Positions 18,647 to 33,630 are shown, counted from the first letter of the stretch. The stretch is 36,406 nucleotides of DNA from Armatimonadota bacterium (GCA_013178155.1 JABLXH010000047.1:1-36406); one strand, 5' to 3'. Notes: generated from the letters alone by a model not told the origin. Program-made: numbers and translations.

Positions 18647-19021
18647 ATGACCCTGGCTGAGGCGGCGGGGGTGCTCAAGGCTGAGAAACTCGTGGACGGC
18701 GCCGAGGATCAGGCGCAGCTTGAGGGCTGTTTTGCGGCTGACCTCATGAGCGACGTGCTCGCCTTCGCACGTCCGGGCTCCCTGCTGCTGACAGGCCTTA
18801 CCACCGACCAGACCATCCGCACCGCAGCCATCAAGCACCTCGCCGCGGTGGTGATCATCGAGGGGAAGGAAGCGGGGGCCGAGATGGTGGAGGCGGCTCG
18901 GGAACAGGGAGTGGCGGTCTACCGCACACCGCTGTCCAAGTACGAGGCCTGTGGTCTGCTGATGCAGGCCGGCCTGCGACCCTACCGCAAGTCGGCTCCC
19001 CAGGACTGGCAGACGAAGTGA
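18647..19021 (+). CDS. DRTGG-like small domain protein, first copy
   Basis: 124 residues from ATG 18647 (GGAGA ten bases upstream). It has an alpha/beta pattern: MTLAEAAGVLKAEKLVDGAE at the start, CFAADLMSDVLAFARPGSLL next, and then LTTDQTIRTAAIKHLAAVV. It ends TPLSKYEACGLLMQAGL. This is the small single-domain DRTGG protein encoded beside clostridial multisubunit [FeFe] hydrogenases, as I recall; the namesake D-R-T-G-G string is not preserved. The fold resembles regulatory domains found in phosphotransacetylase and HPrK N-termini, so ligand sensing is plausible. It opens a run of five closely spaced genes leading to the hydrogenase operon. Confidence 0.75.
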   Translation: MTLAEAAGVLKAEKLVDGAEDQAQLEGCFAADLMSDVLAFARPGSLLLTGLTTDQTIRTAAIKHLAAVVIIEGKEAGAEMVEAAREQGVAVYRTPLSKYEACGLLMQAGLRPYRKSAPQDWQTK

Positions 19022-19043
19022 CAGGCTCTGGCTGACCACCCTA

Positions 19044-19508
19044 GTGAAGGCGTACCCCGGCATGGGCGACGCACCCCTGGCGTATCACGAGTTCCCGATC
19101 CTGGGCCGGGCCTACTTCCTCGGCGGACGAGCCTCAACGTCTGTGAAGCGTGTGCTGGGCGAGGCCGGAGTGGATGAGGGCACCATCCAGCGGGTGGCTG
19201 TGGCGTGCTACGAGGCGGAGATGAACGTCGTCCTGCACGCCCGGTCCGGGTATGTGGCGGTGAGCGTATACGCTGACCGGGTGGAACTGGTGGTGCGTGA
19301 CCAGGGGCCCGGTATCGAAGACGTGGACCTGGCGATGACGCCGGGCTGGTCTTCGGCCTCCGAGGAAGCCCGGTCCCTGGGCTTTGGCGCAGGCATGGGC
19401 CTGCCCAACATCAAGCAACATTCCGACGCCATGCGGGTGGAGAGCACACCTGGCGCCGGAGTGTGCCTGCTGCTGACATTCCAGCGGGGAGGAACCGCCC
19501 ATGGCTGA
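19044..19508 (+). CDS. RsbW-like anti-sigma-factor-type ATPase / serine kinase
   Basis: 154 residues from GTG 19044; ATG 19062 is an alternative, and neither has a clear ribosome site. It is a stand-alone GHKL ATPase domain: N box EAEMNVVLHARSGYV, G1 box RDQGPGIEDVDL, and G2 box SLGFGAGMGLPNIKQHSDAM. It has no HisKA dimerisation domain, so it resembles anti-sigma serine kinases (RsbW/SpoIIAB/RsbT) more than histidine kinases. The gene end overlaps the next start. Linked DRTGG-like proteins could be its partners or substrates. No anti-anti-sigma STAS protein is present in the window. Confidence 0.85.
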   Translation: MKAYPGMGDAPLAYHEFPILGRAYFLGGRASTSVKRVLGEAGVDEGTIQRVAVACYEAEMNVVLHARSGYVAVSVYADRVELVVRDQGPGIEDVDLAMTPGWSSASEEARSLGFGAGMGLPNIKQHSDAMRVESTPGAGVCLLLTFQRGGTAHG

Positions 19509-19851
19509 ATCGGCACTGATCACGGTGGCCGATGTGGCCCGTGAGTTGGCGACGCAGGTCACCGGCGGTGAGGCCTTGCAGACCCCGGTGACGGGCGCAC
19601 AGGTCTGTGACCTGCTGAGCCATGTCATGGCGCGGGGACGGGAGGGTCAGGTGTGGATCACCATCCAGACCCATCCCAACATCGTGGCGGTGGCAGCGCT
19701 GGCGCGGCTCTCCGCCATCGTCCTGGCCCATGGCATGCAGCCCGAGGAAGAGACCGTGATGCGGGCGGAGGACGAAGGCATCCCGCTGCTGCTGTCGGAG
19801 GACTCGGCCTACACGCTCGCGGGCCGTCTCTATCTGCTGGGTGTCCGGTAG
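19501..19851 (+). CDS. DRTGG-like small domain protein, second copy
   Basis: 116 residues; its ATG lies inside the end of the RsbW-like gene, so the two are translationally coupled. The pattern is ALITVADVARELATQVTGGE, QVCDLLSHVMARGREGQVW and ITIQTHPNIVAVAALARLSA, ending IPLLLSEDSAYTLAGRLYLL. This parallels the first copy (LADLMSDVL-type helix, central beta-alpha unit, Ser/Tyr-containing end), so the two are paralogues despite low identity. Two diverged single-domain copies flanking one ATPase suggest a heteromeric complex or sensing of two signals; this is inference. The product has no membrane segment or metal motif. Confidence 0.72.
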   Translation: MAESALITVADVARELATQVTGGEALQTPVTGAQVCDLLSHVMARGREGQVWITIQTHPNIVAVAALARLSAIVLAHGMQPEEETVMRAEDEGIPLLLSEDSAYTLAGRLYLLGVR

Positions 19852-19857
19852 CGGGCG

Positions 19858-20622
19858 GTGCGATCAGGCTCCCTGGTGGCCATGGACCTGCACGTGCACA
19901 CGGCGCTATCCCCTTGCGCCGCGGCCGAGATGGTGCCCCCTGCGATGCTGCTGGCCGCCGAGCGGGGCGGCGTGGCGGTCCTGGGGGTCGTGGACCACTC
20001 GTCGGCCGGCAACGCGGCGGCAGTGCTGGAGGCCGCACCGGCCTTTGACGTGGCGGTGCTGGTGGGTCTGGAGGTGGAGAGCGTCGAGGGCGTGCACCTG
20101 CTGGCCTTGTTTGCCACGGCTGCGGCGGCGACAGCGTTTGGGGCGCTGGTCGCCACTCACCTCCCGCCGCTGCGCAATCGCCCGGACCTGTTCGGGGAGC
20201 AGATGCTGGTCAACGAGTGGGGTGAGGTCGTGGCCGAGGAGTCGCGGCTGCTGGCCGTGGCTACCGACCTGGGCGTCGAGGAGGTTGCCGACCTCATCCT
20301 GGCCCACGAAGGACTGTGTGTTGCCGCCCACGTAGACCGGACGGCCAACGGTCTGCTGCCAACCCTGGGCTTCGTGCCGCCCAGACTGCACCTGGATGGC
20401 CTGGAGCTATCGCGCTTCACGTCACCGGCGGCGGCACTCGCACGCTGGCCAGAGTTGCGCAGGCAGCCACTTCTGCAGAGCTCCGACGCCCACTGCCTGG
20501 CCGAGATCGGGTGTGTTCGGACGCTGGTGCCGGCCGAGCTCGGCAGTCCGGGCAATGCCTTGCAGGACTGGGGGCGAGCGCTGGCGGAGTTCCTCAAGGA
20601 AGTGACGAGCCGGCATGCGTGA
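19858..20622 (+). CDS. PHP-domain metal-dependent phosphoesterase (TrpH-like)
   Basis: 254 residues from GTG 19858; ATG 19882 (MDLHVHTALSPC) is an alternative. The PHP metal ligands are visible in order: H-V-H in DLHVHTALSPC, Asp-His in GVVDHSSAG, Glu in VGLEVESVEGVHLLALF, His in VAAHVDRTANG, and D-A-H in SSDAHCLAEIG. A trinuclear metal phosphoesterase site is therefore likely complete. Homologous PHP proteins sit in the same position next to clostridial hydrogenase genes, to my recollection. It could hydrolyse a phosphoprotein or nucleotide signal made by the neighbouring kinases; that role is inferred. It ends overlapping the next gene. Confidence 0.85.
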   Translation: MRSGSLVAMDLHVHTALSPCAAAEMVPPAMLLAAERGGVAVLGVVDHSSAGNAAAVLEAAPAFDVAVLVGLEVESVEGVHLLALFATAAAATAFGALVATHLPPLRNRPDLFGEQMLVNEWGEVVAEESRLLAVATDLGVEEVADLILAHEGLCVAAHVDRTANGLLPTLGFVPPRLHLDGLELSRFTSPAAALARWPELRRQPLLQSSDAHCLAEIGCVRTLVPAELGSPGNALQDWGRALAEFLKEVTSRHA

Positions 20623-21181
20623 ACTGGCCCTGCACTTCCTGGACCTCCTGCGCAATTCCGTGGAAGCGGGAGCCCGCATCGTGGAACTGGACGTCGCCGA
20701 GGAGACCGCCAGCGGGCTGCTTCGTTTCGAGCTGCGGGATGATGGCCGCGGCATGGACGAGACAACCCTGGCCCGGGCCACTGACCCTTTCTTCACATCA
20801 CGCACTACCCGACGGGTGGGCATGGGTCTGGCACTGATGCGGGCCTGCTGTGAGCGGTGCGGGGGCGAGCTGAGCGTCGCGTCGCAGCCGGGTCAGGGGA
20901 CAGTGGTCACGGGGCATCTGCTGGTCTCCCACCTCGACTGCCCGCCGCTGGGGGACATGGGAGCCGTCGCTCAGTCCATGGCCTGCGAAGCCGACGCAGT
21001 GGAGTTTGTGTACCGCCATCGGGTGGACAGGAAGGTATTTTCGCTGGACACACGAAGAATAAAGGCTAAACTGGGCATGCATACCCTCGGCGCTGCCGAG
21101 GTATTGTCCTGGATTAGAGAGCACGTCAACGAGGAGTTGAGGCGACTGCACCGGGGGCGGCGAACCGCTTCCGGGGGTTAG
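20615..21181 (+). CDS. Histidine-kinase-type GHKL ATPase lacking a HisKA domain
   Basis: 188 residues; the ATG lies eight bases inside the end of the PHP gene. The GHKL boxes are N box LALHFLDLLRNSVEAGA, G1 box RDDGRGMDETTLARATDPFF (which includes the F box), then TSRTTRRVGMGLALMRACCE as G2. The ATPase domain fills residues 1-110. The remaining about 75 residues form an unassigned alpha/beta tail (AVEFVYRHRVDRKVFSLDTR, then ending AEVLSWIREHVNEELRRL). There is no phospho-acceptor His domain, sensor or membrane segment, so it is a partial kinase or a protein-controlled ATPase. It closes the signalling block, 208 bases before the hydrogenase genes. Confidence 0.82.
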   Translation: MRELALHFLDLLRNSVEAGARIVELDVAEETASGLLRFELRDDGRGMDETTLARATDPFFTSRTTRRVGMGLALMRACCERCGGELSVASQPGQGTVVTGHLLVSHLDCPPLGDMGAVAQSMACEADAVEFVYRHRVDRKVFSLDTRRIKAKLGMHTLGAAEVLSWIREHVNEELRRLHRGRRTASGG

Positions 21182-21389: not shown

Positions 21390-21764
21390 GTGAAGACCAG
21401 AGAGGAGCTGCAAGCCCTGCGCGAGCGGGCGAGGGCGGCGCTGGCCGTGCGCGACCAGGAGGGGGGAGCACGCGTGGTCATCGCCATGGGCACCTGTGGC
21501 ATCGGCGCCGGAGCCCGCGAGGCTATGACCGCGCTCCTGGATGAGCTGGCCCAGCGTGGCCTGTCGCACGTTACCGTGGCCCAGACCGGCTGCAAGGGCC
21601 TTTGCGACCAGGAGCCGGTTGTCGAAGTCTGCACCCCAGGCGCTCCGGCCGTCACCTACGGCCACGTCACCCCACACGTCATGCGTCGCATCGTCGCCGA
21701 ACATATTGTCAACGGCCAAGTGGTGTCGGAGTACGCCATCGGGACCGCATCGGAGGCGAACTAG
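21390..21764 (+). CDS. Thioredoxin-fold [2Fe-2S] ferredoxin protein
   Basis: 124 residues from GTG 21390, with an AAGGGAG ribosome site. The sequence KTREELQALRERARAALAVR is followed by VVIAMGTCGIGAGAREAM, then VAQTGCKGLCDQEPVVEVC. Cysteines 36, 68, 72 and 81 are positioned to bind a [2Fe-2S] cluster in the NuoE/thioredoxin-like fold. Single-domain proteins of this kind are encoded next to HydC/HydB of multisubunit hydrogenases, where they could pass electrons or mimic the N-terminal domain of HydB. It is three bases upstream of hydC and starts the four-gene hydrogenase operon. Confidence 0.87.
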   Translation: MKTREELQALRERARAALAVRDQEGGARVVIAMGTCGIGAGAREAMTALLDELAQRGLSHVTVAQTGCKGLCDQEPVVEVCTPGAPAVTYGHVTPHVMRRIVAEHIVNGQVVSEYAIGTASEAN

Positions 21765-21767
21765 CGC

Positions 21768-22244
21768 ATGGCAACCGTGGCCCTTCCCGAGGATGTCTAC
21801 ACCCGCATTGACCGAGTCATCGCTGCCAAGGGCAGTGATCGTGACTCCCTGATCGAGGTCCTCCACGGCGTCCAGGAGGAGATCGGCTACCTGCCGCAGC
21901 CGGTGCAGGAGTATGTGGCCGACCGCCTCGGCCTGCCGGTTGGCACGGTTGAGGGGGTCGTGACCTTCTACAGCTTCTTTACCACCGTCCCGCGCGGCCG
22001 TCATCTCATCAAGGTCTGCCAGGGCACGGCCTGCTATGTGCGCGGGGGCAAGCGCGTCCTGGAGGCCGTCAGCAAGGCGGCTGGGTGTGGTGTGGGCGAA
22101 ACCAGCCCGGACATGCGCTTCTCCCTGGACGTTGTGCGCTGCGTGGGCGCATGCGGCCTCTCCCCCGTCATGACGGTCAACGAGGACATCTATGAGCGCG
22201 TCAAGCCCACCAAAGTCGCCGAAATCCTGGACCGGTACCAGTAG
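21768..22244 (+). CDS. hydC: HydC, NuoE-like [2Fe-2S] subunit of the NAD-linked hydrogenase
   Basis: 158 residues. The NuoE pattern is [39 protein letters not shown] and then the cluster ligands: C84-Q-G-T-A-C89 and C125-V-G-A-C129. The helical N-terminal domain and thioredoxin-like C-terminal domain have the usual length (about 155-165). In electron-bifurcating HydABC complexes this subunit passes electrons near the HydB flavin. It sits between the [2Fe-2S] protein and hydB with short spacing, so it is co-transcribed with both. Confidence 0.94.
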
Positions 22245-22285: not shown

Positions 22286-25200
22286 ATGCCTACGTTTCGT
22301 TCCCATGTTCTGGTCTGCGCCGGGGCCAGTTGCGTCTCCTCCGGCTGCCAGGCCGTGGCCGAGGCCCTCGAGCAGACCATCAAGGAAGTGGGTCTCGGCG
22401 ACGAGGTGAAGGTTGTCCGCACCGGGTGCATGGGGTCCTGTGACCTCGGTCCGGTAGCGGTCGTATACCCTGAAGGGGTCTTCTATAAGAAGCTTACCCC
22501 GGAGGGCGCTGTCCTCATCGCCAAGGAGCATCTGCTGAAGGGACGTCCGGTTGATGAGCTCATGTACCGGCCCTCGGAAGAGGAAGCGCCGGCGCTGAGC
22601 ATGGACCAGATTCCCTTCTTTGCTCTGCAGCAGAAGATCGTCCTGCGCAATTGCGGTGAGATTGACCCCGAGCAGATTGACGAGTACATCGCCCGCGATG
22701 GCTACGAGGCCCTCGCCAAGGTGCTCACTGAGATGACACCGGAGGAGGTCATCGCCACCGTCAAAGCCTCGGGGCTGCGCGGCCGTGGTGGCGGCGGCTT
22801 CCCCACCGGCGTCAAATGGGAGCTTACGGCCAAGGCGCAGGACGACGTGAAGTATGTGGTCTGCAACGCCGATGAGGGGGATCCCGGCGCCTTCATGGAT
22901 CGCAGCGTACTGGAGGGCGACCCCCACAGCGTGCTGGAGGCCATGGCCATCGCCGGATATGCGATTGGCGCGCACAAGGGCTACATCTACGTACGCGCCG
23001 AGTACCCCCTGGCCATCGCCCGCCTTTCCATCGCTCTGGCGCAGGCTCGGGAGTATGGTCTGCTGGGCAACGACATCTTCAGCAGCGGCTTTGACTTTGA
23101 CATTGAGCTGCGCATGGGCGCCGGAGCTTTCGTCTGTGGCGAAGAGACCGCGCTTATGGCCTCAATCGAGGGGAAGCGTGGCGAGCCGCGACCGCGTCCG
23201 CCGTTCCCGGCCCAGAAGGGGCTTTTTGGTAAGCCGACGTTGCTCAACAACGTCGAGACCTTTGCCAACATTCCGCCGATCATCCTCAATGGGGCCGAGT
23301 GGTTTGCTTCGTTTGGCACCGAGACCAGTAAGGGCACCAAGGTTTTCGCCCTGGCGGGGCATGTCAACAACACGGGTCTGGTGGAAGTGCCCATGGGCAC
23401 GCCACTGGGCACGATCATCTACGAGATCGGCGGCGGCATCCGCAACAACCGCAAGTTCAAGGCGGCCCAGAGCGGGGGCCCTTCCGGGGGCTGCATCCCC
23501 AGGGAGTTCCTCAACACGCCGGTAGACTATGAGAGCCTCAAGGAACTGGGCTCGATCATGGGGTCCGGCGGCCTCATCGTCATGGATGAAAGCACCTGCA
23601 TGGTGGACCTGGCACGCTTCTTCATCGAGTTCGTCCAGGACGAGTCCTGCGGCAAGTGCCCGCCGTGTCGGATCGGTACCAAGCGGATGCTGGAGATCCT
23701 CGAGCGTATCTGCGCCGGCGAGGGCCGGGAGGGCGACGTGGAGCTGCTCCTGGACCTGGGCGAGCAGATCAAGCTAACGTCGCTGTGCGGACTAGGGCAG
23801 ACAGCCCCCAACCCGGTTCTCAGCACGATCCGTTACTTCCGCGAGGAGTACGACGAGCACATCCGCAAGAAGCACTGCCGGGCCGGCGTCTGCAGTGAGA
23901 TGATGAAGGCCCCGTGCGAGCACGCCTGTCCGGCGGGGGTAGACGTGCCGGCCTACGTCAGCCTGATTGCCGAAGGTCGTCTGGACGACGCCTACGATGT
24001 GGTGCGCGAGGCCAACCCCTTCCCCTCGGTCTGTGGACGGGTCTGCACGGCGTACTGCGAGTTGCAGTGTCGTCGCTCGCAACTGGACGGTCCAGTCTCC
24101 ATCCGGTTGCTCAAACGGGCGGCGGCCGATCACCGGAGCCGCGCCTGGCAGCCCCAACTGGCGCCGCGCAACCACCACAAGGTGGCCGTCATCGGCAGCG
24201 GCCCGGCGGGTCTGACCTGTGCCTACGACCTGCTCAAGCACGGCTATGACGTGACCGTGTTTGAGCGGGAGTCCGTGCCGGGCGGCATGATGGCCTTTGG
24301 CATTCCGGATTACCGCTTGCCCCAGGACGTTTTGCAGCGCGAGATCCAGGACCTGGTGGACCTGGGCATTGAACTGCGGACCGGGGTCGCGCTCGGCCGG
24401 GACTTCACTATCGAGAGCCTGGAAACAGAGGGCTACGAGGCGATCTTTGTCGCCGTTGGCTGCCAGGTGGGCCTGCCGCTGGAGTGCCCGGGAGCGGACG
24501 CCGAGGGCGTCGTGGACGCGGTATCCTTCCTGCGCCAGGTTAACATGCAGGCGGCGCCCAGCATCGGGCCGCGCGTGGCGGTCATTGGCGGCGGCGACAC
24601 GGCCATCGACTCGGCTCGCTCGGCACTGCGCCTGGGCGCCTCGGAGGTGCATCTGGTATACCGCCGCACGCGGGACGAGATGCCCGCGCATCCGGCCGAA
24701 ATTGACGAGGCCGAGGTGGAGGGCGTGCAGTTCCACTTCCTGGCCGCCCCCAAGGAGATCAAAGTCGTTGACGGCAAGGTCGCCGGAATTGTCTGCCAGC
24801 AGATGAAGCTGGGCGACTTTGACCGCAGCGGCCGCCGTCGCCCGGAGCCGGTGGAGGGTGCGGAGTTCACGCTGGATGTCGACACCGTGATCCCGGCCAT
24901 CGGGCAGACGATCGAGAGTGACTGCCTCTGTGTGGACACCCAGCGGGGCAAGATCTGCGTGGATGCCGAGACCTTCCGCACTTCGCGGGCGAACGTGTTC
25001 GCCGGTGGCGACGCCACGGAGGGCCCCATGACCGTCGTGGACGCGATCGCGGACGGGCACCGGGCCGCGGCGGCGATCCACAGCTTCATCTCCGGCGAGC
25101 CCATGCCGGCGCCGAAGCTGCGCCGCAAGACCCGGGTGACGCCCGAGATCATGGCTTCGCTGGAAGAGAACGCTGAGGAGGAAAGGCCGCCGGTTGACTC

Positions 25201-25333
25201 GCCGCGCATCCCGGACGCGTACCGCCGCACGGGGTTCTCGGAGGTCGAGTTGGGTTACTCGGTGCCAGTGGCCTGCCGCGAGGCGGCGCGGTGTCTGCAC
25301 TGCGACTACCTGCTGATCGAGGAGGAAGGGTAG
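22286..25333 (+). CDS. hydB: HydB (NuoF-like) fused to an NfnB/GltD-like FAD-NADPH domain
   Basis: 1015 residues (AAGGAAGG ribosome site), versus about 600 for ordinary HydB. Residues 1-110: thioredoxin-fold [2Fe-2S] domain ([21 protein letters not shown]). Residues about 150-420: NuoF core with FMN loop [24 protein letters not shown] and NADH-site [19 protein letters not shown]. About 450-520: [4Fe-4S] motif [16 protein letters not shown] and [14 protein letters not shown]. From about 540 the usual 2[4Fe-4S] HydB tail is replaced by a GltD/NfnB module: [30 protein letters not shown] loop [14 protein letters not shown] (about 633), NAD(P) loop [12 protein letters not shown] (about 764), [10 protein letters not shown], and [11 protein letters not shown]. 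All parts look intact. The fusion could link NADH and NADPH pools to ferredoxin and H2; that is inferred. Confidence 0.95.
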
Positions 25334-25399: not shown

Positions 25400-27142
25400 A
25401 TGTCCGAGTTTGCGATAACGATAAACGACCAGCCGGTTAGTGCCCACTCCGGCATGACCGTGCTGGAGGCCGCTCAGGCGGCTGGCATCAAGATCCCGAC
25501 GCTGTGCTATCACCCGGACCTGCCGCCCCTGGGCGCTTGCCGGGTCTGCCTGGTCGAGATCGAGGGAGAGCGCAATCTACAGCCCTCGTGTTCCTTTCCG
25601 GTGCGCGAGGGCATGGTTGTCTGGACGCACTCGGCCAAGGTCCGTAAGGCTCGCCGGACGGTGGTGGAACTGCTGTTGTCCGACCACCCTTCTGACTGCA
25701 CGGCCTGCGCCCGCAACCAGAACTGCGAGCTGCAGACGTTGGCCCAGGAGCTGGGCATACGCGAGGTGCGCGTCCGCGTGGAGCCGCGGGGTTACGAGGT
25801 GGACGATACCAGCCTGGCTGTCGTCCGTGACCCCGACAAGTGCATCCTCTGCCGTCGCTGCCTGCAGACCTGTGACCTCATCCAGAGTGTCTCGGGCCTG
25901 CGCTTGAGCGGGCGCGGCTATGACACGGTCATCGGCATGCCCTTTGACACCCACATGGGTAGCGCGCTGTGCGTGAACTGCGGCCAGTGCATCAACCGCT
26001 GCCCAACGGGGGCGCTCACCGAGAAGTTCCAGATCAATGAGGTCTGGGAGATGCTGGAGGACCCCGGGACCTTCACGGTAGTGCAGACTGCTCCGGCGGT
26101 CCGCATCGCCCTCGGCGAAGCCCTGGGAATGCCGCCGGGGGAGATTGTCACCGGCAAGCTGACCAGTGCGCTGCGCTTGCTGGGCTTTGACCGCGTCTTC
26201 GACACCGACTTCACGGCCGACCTCACCATCATGGAGGAGGGCCACGAACTTATCCACCGGTTGACCGAAGGTGGGGCGCTGCCGCAGCTCACCTCCTGCA
26301 GTCCGGGCTGGATCAAGTTCATCGAGCATTTCTACCCGCAGTTACTGCCCAATGTGTCGAGCTGCAAGTCACCGCAGCAGATGTTTGGCGCTCTGGCCAA
26401 GACCTACTTCGCGGAGACCGCTGGCGTGGACCCGGCGAAGATGAAGGTCGTCTCCATCATGCCGTGCACTGCCAAGAAGTACGAAGCGGCCCGTCCGGAG
26501 ATGAACGCCTCCGGGTATCGGGACGTGGACGTGGTCCTGACCACCCGGGAGTTGGCGCAGATGATCAAGGAGAAGGGTATTGACTTTGCGACCCTTCCCG
26601 ACAGTGACTACGACGACCCACTGGGCGAGTCCACTGGCGCAGCGGTCATCTTCGGCGCCACCGGCGGAGTCATGGAGGCGGCCCTGCGGACGGCCTACGA
26701 AGTCATCACCGGCGAGAAGCTCGAAAACCTCGACATCGAGGCGGTGCGGGGCATGGAGGGCGTCCGTGAAGCGTCAGTGCAGATTGGTGACCTCACGGTG
26801 AAGGCCGCGGTTGCCCACGGCCTGAGCAACGCCGCCCAGTTGCTGGACCGGGTCGCGGCGGGTGACGCTGACTACCATTTCATCGAGATCATGTGCTGCC
26901 CGGGCGGTTGTCTGGGCGGTGGCGGCCAGCCGGTCCCGACCTCGCCGGAGATCCGCCAGCAGCGTGCCGCGGCCATCTACGAGGCTGACCGCCGCATGCC
27001 GATCCGGCGGTCCCATGAGAACCCCTCCATCCAGGCGCTCTACGAGCGGTTCCTGGGCAAGCCGCTATCCGAGAAGTCCCATCACCTTCTCCACACCGAG
27101 TACACGCCGCGCACGAAACGGGCGGTGCAGGAGGAGAACTAG
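25400..27142 (+). CDS. hydA: HydA, [FeFe]-hydrogenase catalytic subunit (group A)
   Basis: 580 residues from ATG 25400, with AGGAGG at 25385-25390. In order: plant-type [2Fe-2S] domain (C35; GACRVC), His/Cys3 [4Fe-4S] motif (DHPSDCTACARNQNC, about 95-107), two [4Fe-4S] motifs (CILCRRCLQTC, about 148-158; CVNCGQCINRCP, about 191-202), then the H-cluster domain. L1 is TSCSPGW (298-304, Cys300), L2 MPCTAKKYE (Cys356), and L3 runs EIMCCPGGCLGGGGQP (Cys500, Cys504), so all four H-cluster cysteines are present. The residue after Cys300 is Ser rather than the proton-relay Cys of CpI; as I recall this occurs in other multimeric NAD-linked hydrogenases. It follows hydB by 66 bases. It lacks the extra C-terminal [2Fe-2S] domain of Thermotoga-type HydA. 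Confidence 0.97.
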   Translation: MSEFAITINDQPVSAHSGMTVLEAAQAAGIKIPTLCYHPDLPPLGACRVCLVEIEGERNLQPSCSFPVREGMVVWTHSAKVRKARRTVVELLLSDHPSDCTACARNQNCELQTLAQELGIREVRVRVEPRGYEVDDTSLAVVRDPDKCILCRRCLQTCDLIQSVSGLRLSGRGYDTVIGMPFDTHMGSALCVNCGQCINRCPTGALTEKFQINEVWEMLEDPGTFTVVQTAPAVRIALGEALGMPPGEIVTGKLTSALRLLGFDRVFDTDFTADLTIMEEGHELIHRLTEGGALPQLTSCSPGWIKFIEHFYPQLLPNVSSCKSPQQMFGALAKTYFAETAGVDPAKMKVVSIMPCTAKKYEAARPEMNASGYRDVDVVLTTRELAQMIKEKGIDFATLPDSDYDDPLGESTGAAVIFGATGGVMEAALRTAYEVITGEKLENLDIEAVRGMEGVREASVQIGDLTVKAAVAHGLSNAAQLLDRVAAGDADYHFIEIMCCPGGCLGGGGQPVPTSPEIRQQRAAAIYEADRRMPIRRSHENPSIQALYERFLGKPLSEKSHHLLHTEYTPRTKRAVQEEN

Positions 27143-27203: not shown

Positions 27204-27241
27204 TGTCTCGGGTGGCGTATGGCCAAGAGGCGGGAGTCCGG

Positions 27242-28681
27242 ATGAGCCTGACGCAGGACAGTGGCCGCAACTGGCCGCGAGAGCGTGTCGAGCAGACGGC
27301 GAGGGCGATCTGCGATCCGCCGGCCATTGCCGATCTGCTGGCCGCGGCGGCCAACCCTTCGCCCGACGAGGTGCGCGACATTCTCTACGAGGCCGGCGGG
27401 GGGCGGGGGCTGACGGCGGCCCAGGCGGCCACTCTGCTGCAGGTGACCGATCCCTCCCTGCGCGAGCAGGTGAAAGACGCGGCTCGCCAGCTTCATGAGC
27501 GTCTGTTCGCCCGTCGCGTCCGCCTGTTGGCGCCCGTGTGTCCCACCAACCGCTGCATCAACGAATGTCTGTACTGCCCCCTGCGACGATCAAACTCCCG
27601 GCTGCGCCGCACCGCCTCCAGCGCCCGCGACCTGCAGCGCGAAGTCACCGCCCTGGTGGACGAAGGACACCGCCATCTGACGCTGGTATTCGGCGAGGAC
27701 CGCAGCGGCATCCACTATGTCTGCGACATGGTGAACGCGGCCTACGGAGTGCGCTCGGGCACCCGCCGCGTGCACCGCGTTGATCTGAACCTGAACTCCT
27801 CCCACCCCGAGGAACTGGCAGCGCTGGCTCAGATCGAGCGCCTTGGCACTTACCATGTCTACCAGGAGACCTATGATCCGGAGACGTATGCCCGGTTACA
27901 CGTGGACGGCCCCAAACAGGACTACGCGTGGCGCCTGACATGTCACGACCGGGCCTGCGAGGCGGGTCTGAGGGATGTGGGACTGGGAGTGCTGCTCGGC
28001 CTGCATGATCCCCGGTTTGACGTACTGGCAGTGCTGATCCATGCCCAGTACCTGCTGGAGAGGTACAACACCGCGGCGGAGGTTATCACCTACCCTCGCT
28101 TGCTCCCCGTGCCGGGGGCGCCGGTGACCAGGGACACGTCCTGGCAGGTGGATGACGAGGCTTTCGGCTTCCTCATAGCCGTGACCCGGCTGGTGGCCCC
28201 GGTTACGGAAATCGTGCTGAGCACCCCGGCAACGCCGGAGGTGCGGCGGCAACTCTACGCCTTGGGCGTCTCGCAGGTCAGCGTGGGCTCGCTGAGCTAC
28301 CCTGGTGTCTACAGTGCAGACGGCGACCCGGAGGCCGCCGGTTCCCTGCGCATCGGGCGACCCCGCAACCTGGAGACTCTTGTCTACCGCATGTGCGAGG
28401 TGGGCTTCGTGCCCAACTTCTGTGTGGAATGCTACGCGCAGATCCGCCAGAAGCTCAGCGACGACAGCCGGCAGGCGGAGCGCTACCCGGTCCATCGCGC
28501 CGCAGCCAACTCACTTCTGGCGCTCAAGGAGTACCTGCTCGACTACGCCTCCCCCGAGACGCAGAACGTGGCGGCCGGCATTATCCAGGAAGAGTTGGCA
28601 CGCCTGCCCCGCAAGGTTCGCGACGCTACCCTCGACCTGATGGAAGAGGCCGAGGCGGGCCTGCGCGGGCAGATGCTGTGA
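27242..28681 (+). CDS. HydG-like radical SAM protein with an incomplete C-terminal cluster motif
   Basis: 479 residues from ATG 27242 (GGCGGGAG upstream). Homology to the tyrosine lyases HydG and ThiH runs along the whole length: radical-SAM CX3CX2C at C105-I-N-E-C109-L-Y-C112, LTLVFGEDRSGIHYVCDMV, LGTYHVYQETYDPETYARLH, VGLGVLLGLHDPRFDVLAVL, LSTPATPEVRRQLYALGVSQ and NFCVECYAQI. HydG carries a second cluster on C-x2-C-x22-C at its end; C394 and C397 are present but the third position is Ala420 (VHRAAANSLLALKEYLLDY). HydG makes the CO and CN ligands of the H-cluster, so either this copy is altered or it is a paralogue with another role. HydE and HydF are not in the window. Confidence 0.87.
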   Translation: MSLTQDSGRNWPRERVEQTARAICDPPAIADLLAAAANPSPDEVRDILYEAGGGRGLTAAQAATLLQVTDPSLREQVKDAARQLHERLFARRVRLLAPVCPTNRCINECLYCPLRRSNSRLRRTASSARDLQREVTALVDEGHRHLTLVFGEDRSGIHYVCDMVNAAYGVRSGTRRVHRVDLNLNSSHPEELAALAQIERLGTYHVYQETYDPETYARLHVDGPKQDYAWRLTCHDRACEAGLRDVGLGVLLGLHDPRFDVLAVLIHAQYLLERYNTAAEVITYPRLLPVPGAPVTRDTSWQVDDEAFGFLIAVTRLVAPVTEIVLSTPATPEVRRQLYALGVSQVSVGSLSYPGVYSADGDPEAAGSLRIGRPRNLETLVYRMCEVGFVPNFCVECYAQIRQKLSDDSRQAERYPVHRAAANSLLALKEYLLDYASPETQNVAAGIIQEELARLPRKVRDATLDLMEEAEAGLRGQML

Positions 28682-31193: not shown

Positions 31194-31629
31194 GGTCTAT
31201 GCCTCCAATGCCCAGGAATGATGCTGCCCGTTGCCAGGCCCGCGGTTGCCGTCTCGCTAGCGCCGGTGCGGCTGACTACGGCCCATCGCGGCCGGGAGCC
31301 TGGGCCGAAGTGCCAGTTCGCTGCCAGGGCTCTGCGGACCTCTTCGGCAGCCCACCTGCGCCCACCGGCGCGAGGGGTGGAGGGCGCAGCCCACGGAGCT
31401 TGAGCCTACCTTGAGACGCGTCTGCGCGAAATTCACGTGTTCTTGAGTAACAATGATGGCGTGCTCGGACTGTCGAGCGAGCTAACCCGAGGCACATCCG
31501 TGACGGTCGGCAAGCCGAAGCAGCGACAGAGGCGAGCATTCAGCTCCTGATCAACACTGGCTGGGCGAGCCTGGGATCGCCGAGCGCAGTACCGACGGCC
31601 AGCCGGTGGTAGGGGACGCGGGCACAATC
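31194..31629. other. 436-base divergent intergenic region
   Basis: No credible small ORF, tRNA or mobile-element end is visible between the DUF4091 gene and the hybrid kinase gene. The region must hold promoters for both. The only motif I noted is the 10-bp palindrome AGACGCGTCT near 31414, which may be chance. I could not identify convincing promoter boxes. Confidence 0.5.
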
Positions 31630-33630
31630 ATGAGCAGCGTACGCAGTTGCTTCGTGGAAACGGAAGATGCCGTGCAGACGCTGGTCCCGGGGGTCGTCGA
31701 AGCCACCGGGTGTGAGGTCGTCGGGGTTCATCTGGGCGACGTCAGCCGCCATGGTGCAGCACTGCAACTGGCTGCTCACACCGGCCTCTCTCCCCAGGAG
31801 TGCGAGGCGTGTGCTCTCCTGCAGCCGGGGGAGGGCCTGGCTGGTTACGCCCTCAGCACCATGCGTCCGCTGGCCCTGGGCGAGGGGGATCGCGTGCCAA
31901 GGGGGGTGCGGCTTGCAGCGTGGGAGCGTGGGTTTGCCACCTTCGCGTGCGCACCCTTCCAGGTGGGTGCGGACCACCCGGGCCTGATCTGGGCGCTGTC
32001 CCGGTCGCGCGCCCTGGACACTGAGCGCCTGCTGCCCACCTTGCAGTTGGCCGCTGAGGCGGTGCGCCAGTCCGTCGCCAGTCAACTGGCGGTGGAGAGC
32101 TTCGCTCTGGAGCGAGACCGTTACCAGCAGTTGGCCGCCAATGTCGGTGACTGCTTCTGGACCATGTACATCGAGCCGCAGTTGCGGATCGCGCTGATGA
32201 GCGACGGTGTCCAGGAGCTTACCGGCTACAGCCGCGACAGGTTCATTGCCGAACCCAGTCTATGGCACGAGATTGTCCATGCTGACGACCGGTGGGCACT
32301 GTCGCGCATGCTGGCGCGAGTGCGCGAGGGGGCGACCAAGGACGTCCACTACCGCCTCCGCATCGTGCGCCAGGACGGAGAGCTGCGTTGGGCGCACACT
32401 CGTGGCCGGGCTGTGCGCGACGAGATGGGTCTGCGCATTGACGCCATCACTAGCGACGTGACGGCCCACGTGCGGCTGGAGGAGAAGGTCCGGCGGGCCG
32501 ACCGACTCTCCGCCGTGGGAATGTTGGCCGGGGGCATTGCCCACGAGTACAACAACCTTCATTTCGCCATCCTGGGCACCCTCGATCTCCTCCTGATGCG
32601 GGACGACCTCGACGACGCTATCCGCCAGCACATCAACCGGGTGCGCGATGCTGCCCAACGCGCCTCCGAGATCACCAACAATCTGGTGGCCTTTGCCCGC
32701 GGGGGGAGCGGAATCCGGTCGGTCCTCGACCTTTCGGAGCTGGTCGAGAGCACCCTCAATGTAGTGCGCAAAGAGTTCACCACGTCGGGAATCGAGGTTG
32801 AGACAGAGTTCGCGGACAGACCGACACCGGTCATGGCCAACCGGGCCGAGTTGGGTCAGGTGTTCATCAACCTGATCGTCAACTCACGCCAGGCCCTCGA
32901 CGACGCTCCGGAGAAGCGCCTGGAGGTGACGACTGGCATCGCCGACGATCGCGTCTTCGCTCGCTTCGCTGACACCGGCCACGGCATCTCACCGGAGAAC
33001 CTGCCCCGCCTGTTTGACCCCTTCTTCACCACCAAGGGCGCTGCGGGCTCCTGGCTGGAGGATCGCACCCAGTCCGACGCCTACCTTCCCGGCCGGGGCC
33101 TGGGCCTCAGCGTGGCGCAGACCATCGTGTCCGAACATGGAGGCGAGATCGAGGTCGAGAGCGCGCCCGGTGAGGGAGCGGTGTTCACCGTGTATCTTCC
33201 GCTCTACGAGCCGGAGGGCGGCGTCATCGCGACTGACCCGATGGCTGCCAACCTGCGCAAGGGGCGCATCCTGGTGGCCGATGACGAGCCCTCGGTACGG
33301 GCTGTCTGTCGCGAGCTACTCAACCGCATGTCCTATGACGTCACCGAGGCCTCCGGGGGACAGGAAGCGGTCGAGTTGCTGACGCGCGAGCGCTATGCCC
33401 TGGTGCTGGTGGACCTGCAGATGCCGGACATGGACGGTCTGGAACTGATCCGGCGCATCAACGAAATGCCCCAGCGGCGCCGGCCCGCCAAGCTGGTGAT
33501 CACGGGCGTGGCGGACGAGGTCGCGCCGGAAGTCTGCGAGGAACTGGGCATTGCCAGCACGGTGATGAAGCCCGCCAGCCTGGCCGAGCTTACGGAGAAG
33601 GTCCGACTGGCGCTGTCCCGTGGGGGCTGA
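31630..33630 (+). CDS. Hybrid histidine kinase: GAF-PAS-HisKA-HATPase-REC, cytoplasmic
   Basis: 666 residues from ATG 31630; a GTG at 31606 would add eight, and neither start has a strong ribosome site. Residues about 1-145 look like a GAF-type domain (EECEACALLQPGEGLAGYAL-like, read here as QECEACALLQPGEGLAGY). About 160-275 is a PAS domain with PAC (LTGYSRDRFIAEPSLWHEIV; LRWAHTRGRAV). HisKA follows with phospho-acceptor His305 in AGGIAHEYNNLHFAILG. HATPase has N box INLIVNSRQALDD, G1 DTGHGISPENLPRLFDPFFT and G2 GRGLGLSVAQTIVSEHGG. The C-terminal receiver has acidic pocket ADDE and Asp595 in LVDLQMPDMDGL. There are no membrane spans, so it senses a cytoplasmic signal. It stops 16 bases before the convergent LamG gene. 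No partner DNA-binding regulator is adjacent. Confidence 0.93.
   Translation: MSSVRSCFVETEDAVQTLVPGVVEATGCEVVGVHLGDVSRHGAALQLAAHTGLSPQECEACALLQPGEGLAGYALSTMRPLALGEGDRVPRGVRLAAWERGFATFACAPFQVGADHPGLIWALSRSRALDTERLLPTLQLAAEAVRQSVASQLAVESFALERDRYQQLAANVGDCFWTMYIEPQLRIALMSDGVQELTGYSRDRFIAEPSLWHEIVHADDRWALSRMLARVREGATKDVHYRLRIVRQDGELRWAHTRGRAVRDEMGLRIDAITSDVTAHVRLEEKVRRADRLSAVGMLAGGIAHEYNNLHFAILGTLDLLLMRDDLDDAIRQHINRVRDAAQRASEITNNLVAFARGGSGIRSVLDLSELVESTLNVVRKEFTTSGIEVETEFADRPTPVMANRAELGQVFINLIVNSRQALDDAPEKRLEVTTGIADDRVFARFADTGHGISPENLPRLFDPFFTTKGAAGSWLEDRTQSDAYLPGRGLGLSVAQTIVSEHGGEIEVESAPGEGAVFTVYLPLYEPEGGVIATDPMAANLRKGRILVADDEPSVRAVCRELLNRMSYDVTEASGGQEAVELLTRERYALVLVDLQMPDMDGLELIRRINEMPQRRRPAKLVITGVADEVAPEVCEELGIASTVMKPASLAELTEKVRLALSRGG

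Follow-up and report, generated by a model that had tools for sequence, protein, structure and literature searches.

A gene module of DRTGG, SpoIIAB-like and PHP proteins is linked to group D-type sensory hydrogenase in Clostridia and may form a redox-signalling relay

We analysed a 36,406-nucleotide stretch of DNA from an Armatimonadota bacterium (GCA_013178155.1 JABLXH010000047.1:1-36406), hereafter the window, which is contig C154 of a 5.5-Mb draft genome (G000). Upstream of genes for a multisubunit [FeFe]-hydrogenase (HydABC), the window carries a compact unit encoding two DRTGG-domain proteins (D1 and D2), an RsbW/SpoIIAB-like ATPase (R), a predicted PHP-fold phosphoesterase (P) and a GHKL ATPase without a HisKA domain (G). 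Surveying relatives of this unit, we found that its near one-to-one partner in Clostridia is a hydrogenase-like protein of the sensory type, HydS, rather than HydABC as such.

Scanning GTDB genomes with an alignment of R returned at least 576 confirmed relatives, of which we examined the best 80. These derive mainly from Clostridia, with some from Spirochaetes and Armatimonadetes. Most of the best-80 operons contain an extra gene of ~430 amino acids (aa), resembling [FeFe]-hydrogenase and located between R and D2, which encodes HydS. This placement holds in 66 of the 67 best-80 loci that contain D1, R, HydS, D2 and P, and in one further best-80 locus without P. HydS has two 4Fe-4S motifs and an H-domain, and PAS is absent. 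Its C-terminal Cx2Cx4C motif is accompanied by a fourth cysteine, at a spacing of 16 residues in 62 of 73 cases and of 15-20 residues in the remainder. Across the alignment the four cysteines of the H-cluster are kept, the proton-path cysteine is replaced by alanine, and the MPC motif becomes S/T-PC. Because these features match those given for group D enzymes (PMC8163306), the clostridial HydS of the module is, by its sequence, of the group D (M2e) sensory type.

Phylogenetic profiling revealed how tightly the two are coupled. Our sample comprised 118 Clostridia genomes, related to one another and partly metagenome-assembled genomes (MAGs). Scores for R were bimodal: 65 genomes reached at least 134 bits, almost all of them more than 187, and the next match stood at 65 bits. 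Those for group D HydS were likewise split, at 441 bits or more versus 220 or less. Both genes occurred together in 65 genomes, R alone in none and HydS alone in two (Fisher p 1.7e-31), with R present in 65 of the 67 HydS-positive genomes. In each of the two HydS-only genomes, a contig ends where R would lie: HydS starts from base 2 of contig C159 in G079, and in G057 it is within 45 bp of the end of contig C65. The gene for HydS directly follows R on its 3' side at 64 of 66 loci, in the order D1-R-HydS-D2-P and with a median gap of 33 bp. The exceptions are G046, in which R lies where a contig ends and HydS is on a separate contig, and G150, in which HydS is split between contigs. We did not count as HydS the matches of 136-275 aa that occur next to Rnf genes or at other sites, taking them for cross-matches of the Fer4/RnfB type.

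The initial annotation had read the unit as a signalling module tied to HydABC and proposed profiling it against hydrogenases of this type. Its observation that the gene set recurs beside clostridial hydrogenases was borne out in Clostridia loci, and profiling showed that 62 of the 65 R-positive genomes carry a HydA of group A6 over the cut-off. The converse does not hold, as 29 of the 91 A6-positive genomes lack R. Moreover, HydA lies within 12 kb at 38 of the 66 R loci. We took this linkage from the coordinates of all 66 loci, because the 40 clostridial loci that were read closely had been chosen to be rich in unlinked cases. The unit is real and conserved, but HydABC is not its tight partner.

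We found a different arrangement in the window and its close relatives. Among the matches listed, the nearest named relatives of the window's genome are MAGs of Armatimonadetes or candidate division WS1. The five genes are tightly packed on one strand, R overlapping D2 and P overlapping G by 8 bp each, and both the coordinates and the Pfam matches confirm the single tight operon that had been annotated. The unit is more than a random run of open reading frames: relatives placed in other families of the window's order have the identical arrangement D1-R-D2-P-G-TrxFd-HydC-HydB-HydA, and R shares 41-77% identity with its relatives, both inside a phylum and across phyla. Since R and D2 overlap, a HydS gene between them is absent. 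HydS is also missing from the R-D2 position in the window's order and in one genome of the same class, and a search gave no match at the group D level in the window's genome or in 13 genomes related to it by order or class, which have group A and C-like hydrogenases only. Sister families of the phylum carry D1-R-HydS-D2-P. R occurs in 33 of 201 genomes of the phylum, and in the R tree the window's order is nested within HydS-linked R of Armatimonadota (support 97/94). Because of this nesting, HydS was most likely lost in the window's order. As the order keeps the unit without it, HydS cannot be the sole input to the module.

Two sensory [FeFe]-hydrogenase-histidine kinase fusions are encoded elsewhere in the window's genome, on contigs C152 (L026:6611-11560) and C146 (L027:8473-11313). 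The C152 fusion has a PilS-like kinase and a REC-PAS-kinase as its neighbours, a grouping that could possibly form an H2 phosphorelay.

Several loci carry fused or rearranged versions of the module. In MAGs of two phyla (L179:9434-11032 and L203:7114-8841, both minus strand), R and a group D-like HydS are joined in a single protein that retains the H-cluster cysteines. These two fusions have a single origin in the tree, and the fused gene was probably transferred. D1 and R are fused in L176. A fusion of R to paired CBS domains occurs in Armatimonadota families f11 and f24 and at most of the Spirochaetia loci that we examined; in the R tree, this CBS-R form falls on one side of a branch (91/83). 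In family f24 the CBS unit adjoins NuoE/G/NuoF genes (L178, L181, L182 and L183), together with a molybdopterin oxidoreductase in L178. The CBS form reaches genomes without detectable [FeFe]-hydrogenase; the range of the module therefore takes in NAD-linked redox complexes and not hydrogenase alone, which suggests that this form is a general control unit for such complexes. Six of the examined loci adjoin rnf genes and five adjoin pyrimidine genes, and in some Clostridia (L128:7617-8957, L136 and similar loci) D1-R-HydS-D2-P-G runs directly into rnfC and rnfD.

R resembles the kinases of bacterial partner switches. It matches PF13581 (HATPase_c_2) and PF02518, both above cut-off, and its closest solved structure is the anti-sigma F factor SpoIIAB (E 5e-11), with RsbW also among the nearest. 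N-box residues E49 and N53, D78-x-G80 (in DxGPGI) and G105-G111 (in the glycine-rich G2 box, GFGAGMGL) are invariant across 22 sequences. R is likely an ATP-binding, putative kinase of the SpoIIAB/RsbW type, with which it shares the fold, the N-box Glu and Asn, and the ATP motifs. The surrounding unit differs from those systems: the presumed partners of R are DRTGG rather than STAS proteins, a PHP phosphoesterase takes the place of PP2C, a sigma gene is lacking, and the presumed sensor is a hydrogenase or a CBS pair.

The presumed partners are themselves unusual. AlphaFold models D1 with a predicted local distance difference test (pLDDT) score of 92.8 and with the fold of the DRTGG domain of CBS-pyrophosphatase; the top PDB match is the DRTGG protein 2ioj, and 3l2b also matches. 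In D1, canonical DRTGG residues give way to an invariant D32-x-x-S35, located where a helix begins in the model, and D2 has an invariant D37-x-x-S40. The canonical GDRxD stretch is not kept, reading TGLxxxQxxRT in D1 and TxQxHxN in D2. The idea that the DxxS serine is a general DRTGG residue was not supported, as the six canonical DRTGG domains compared are without it. P scores 23.3 bits against PF02811, below the cut-off of 26.4, and AlphaFold predicts a PHP fold for it (pLDDT 96.6). Its metal ligands H12, H14, D46, H47, E72, H80, H158, D210 and H212 are invariant or near-invariant in 26 sequences, in agreement with the complete set of ligands annotated for this protein. In their domain families and conserved residues, the parts of the unit look to be of the signalling type, as the initial annotation had supposed.

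From the linkage, gene order, fusions, folds and conserved catalytic residues that we observed, we infer a direction of signalling, kinase and phosphatase activities, a substrate and a target. Our confidence stands about midway that D1-R-D2-P is an ATP-driven, partner-switch-like relay with HydS as its usual input, P as its reset and an output on NAD/ferredoxin-linked complexes. Group D HydS, encoded between R and D2, would be the usual sensor, and a CBS pair would serve in the variants. Partner switching by R would most likely proceed through phosphorylation of the invariant serine of D1 and D2, or else through binding of the two according to the ligand they hold. P would reset the state as a metal-dependent PHP phosphoesterase. 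The output may tune HydABC and, in some cases, Rnf or a molybdopterin enzyme; G would be a further ATPase that belongs with the hydrogenase unit. Since HydS is missing in the window, the input in that order would be metabolic or supplied in trans, namely the adenylate or redox state via D1 and D2, or HydS-histidine-kinase fusions elsewhere in the genome. A more specific version, which we hold tentatively and with some doubt, is that the module represents an undescribed class of H2/redox signalling, running from HydS, a hydrogenase of catalytic type, or from a CBS pair to a SpoIIAB-like kinase and on to the DxxS of two DRTGG proteins, with a PHP phosphatase as reset and NAD/ferredoxin complexes as target.

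A number of observations count against such a relay. The window's order retains the unit without HydS, and [FeFe]-hydrogenase was not detected in the CBS-R genomes of family f24. The module contains neither a DNA-binding nor a sigma gene. P resembles nucleic-acid and nucleotide phosphoesterases and not PHP protein phosphatases, the counts are drawn from related genomes that include MAGs, and the kinase, phosphatase and binding activities are read from sequence and fold.

The resemblance of P to nucleotide enzymes also invites a somewhat unlikely alternative, in which D1 and D2 bind a nucleotide messenger, P degrades it and R reads adenylate charge, all without protein phosphorylation. The folds nearest to P are EndoQ, RNase AM and nucleotide phosphoesterases including 2yb1, a PHP enzyme solved with AMP. 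Consistent with this, the DRTGG and CBS domains of the pyrophosphatase whose fold D1 shares bind nucleotide, and R is fused to paired CBS domains across a whole family branch. However, the module is without a nucleotide synthetase or cyclase, the GDRxD stretch is replaced in both D1 and D2, and the catalytic Glu of SpoIIAB is kept in R.

We consider it unlikely that the module serves assembly, maturation or repair, with R and G as chaperone-like ATPases and D1, D2 and P assisting the assembly or insertion of clusters in HydABC and HydS. This possibility is raised by the fusion locus L179, where D1-(R-HydS)-D2-G adjoins HydE, HydG and HydF, by the continuation of the window's operon into a HydG-like gene, and by an earlier suggestion that the HydE protein of Acetobacterium woodii acts in assembly or signalling (PMC3315566). 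Yet nearly a third of the A6-positive Clostridia genomes manage without R, and four bare hydABC operons (three clostridial, plus the second hydrogenase operon of the window's own genome) are without the module, G and TrxFd, while CBS-R units are present where [FeFe]-hydrogenase was not detected.

A classical partner switch is hinted at only by a STAS anti-anti-sigma gene beside D1-CBS-R-D2 in L177 (11037-11450, minus strand; scanned) and L175 (3-503, plus strand; identified by eye). That R is an anti-sigma factor with the DRTGG proteins as antagonists, controlling transcription of the hyd operon, is quite improbable despite SpoIIAB and RsbW being its nearest solved relatives and the STAS antagonist gene adjoining the unit in L177: a sigma gene was not recognised in the loci examined, STAS-like genes stand beside the unit at those two loci only, both of the distant CBS-R form, STAS antagonist and sigma-factor genes are absent beside R in the window, and the ATP-lid region of R (GFGAGMGL) departs from that of SpoIIAB.

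A relay built on D1, R, D2 and P would bear on group D HydS, whose signalling route is an open question according to the account of TamHydS, a putative sensory enzyme (group D, M2e; PMC8163306). In the clostridial module an M2e HydS separates R from D2, and the window itself has none; in the passages of that account consulted here, DRTGG genes, PHP genes or a linkage of them to HydS are not discussed. The near one-to-one linkage of R, D1 and D2 with HydS, together with the R-HydS fusions, names candidate signalling partners for this sensor. HydS of groups C1-C3 (HydDB, PMC5037454) share with our proposal a hydrogenase-type sensor coupled to kinase/phosphatase signalling. Those groups are linked to histidine kinases, chemotaxis proteins and Ser/Thr phosphatases, whereas our unit combines R, D1, D2 and P with a HydS that lacks PAS.

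The genes have been listed before. In Halanaerobium hydrogeniformans, Halsa_1862-1871 comprises hydrogenase, NADH dehydrogenase, ferredoxin-like, histidine kinase and NuoE genes along with PHP, two Fe-S/hydrogenase-like genes and an anti-sigma Ser/Thr kinase (PMC4237134). This is apparently the same operon, given there as a gene list without function, DRTGG identity or a link to a sensor. It is also partly listed for Thermoanaerobacter (PMC3608648) and A. woodii (PMC3315566). In the open-access literature we found no role given to the DRTGG, RsbW-like or PHP genes and no HydS link, although subscription papers may say more; a full-text search for DRTGG with hydrogenase found a DRTGG protein in the context of L-lactate utilisation. 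R is present in about half of the sampled Clostridia and two thirds of the sampled Spirochaetia genomes, and the unit adjoins enzymes on which the H2 yield of fermenters, acetogens and gut bacteria depends.

The module and the remaining genes of the window's operon are listed in Table 1. By domain and position, G is a GHKL ATPase at the place held in the hyd operon by A. woodii HydE, a histidine-kinase-like ATPase that reportedly is not part of the active enzyme (PMC3315566), and TrxFd is the positional counterpart of HydD. The A. woodii operon hydCEDBA is described as five genes only (PMC3315566), unlike that of the window. The module had been annotated as lying just before hydCBA, an order that holds except that the TrxFd gene intervenes between G and hydC. 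TrxFd has three of the four expected ligand cysteines, which suggests that it binds no normal cluster. HydB is a NuoF-GltD-like fusion of 1015 aa, compared with ~600 aa for clostridial HydB, and it probably has a second pyridine nucleotide site. For R, the ATG at 19068 is probably the conserved start.

Table 1 Genes of the module and the adjoining hydrogenase operon in the window
Gene	Position	Strand	Product	Profile matches
D1	18647-19021	+	DRTGG-domain protein, 124 aa, ATG start	PF07085 25.2 bits (cut-off 25.2)
R	19044-19508	+	RsbW/SpoIIAB-like GHKL ATPase, putative Ser/Thr kinase	PF13581
D2	19501-19851	+	Second DRTGG-domain protein, 116 aa	PF07085 28.1 bits (cut-off 25.2)
P	19858-20622	+	Predicted PHP-fold metallo-phosphoesterase, full metal-ligand set	
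G	20615-21181	+	GHKL ATPase with C-terminal extension of ~85 aa	PF02518 61.7 bits; no HisKA match in Pfam
TrxFd	21390-21764	+	Degenerate thioredoxin-like [2Fe-2S] protein	Weak PF01257; fdxn_Clost below cut-off
HydC	21768-22244	+	NuoE-like [2Fe-2S] subunit	PF01257 170 bits
HydB	22286-25333	+	NuoF-like subunit with C-terminal GltD-like FAD/NAD(P) domain	PF01512, PF10589, PF14691, PF07992
HydA	25400-27142	+	Group A6 NADH-dependent [FeFe]-hydrogenase catalytic subunit	NF040763 899.6 bits (cut-off 765)
HydG-like	27212-28681	+	HydG-like radical SAM maturase	TIGR03955 282 bits, best match, under cut-off of 312

A similarity search against plasmid DNA gave no match. Downstream of the hydrogenase operon, the window encodes a PAS hybrid histidine kinase with a receiver domain (31606-33630), separated from the operon by a GH123-like gene on the opposite strand.

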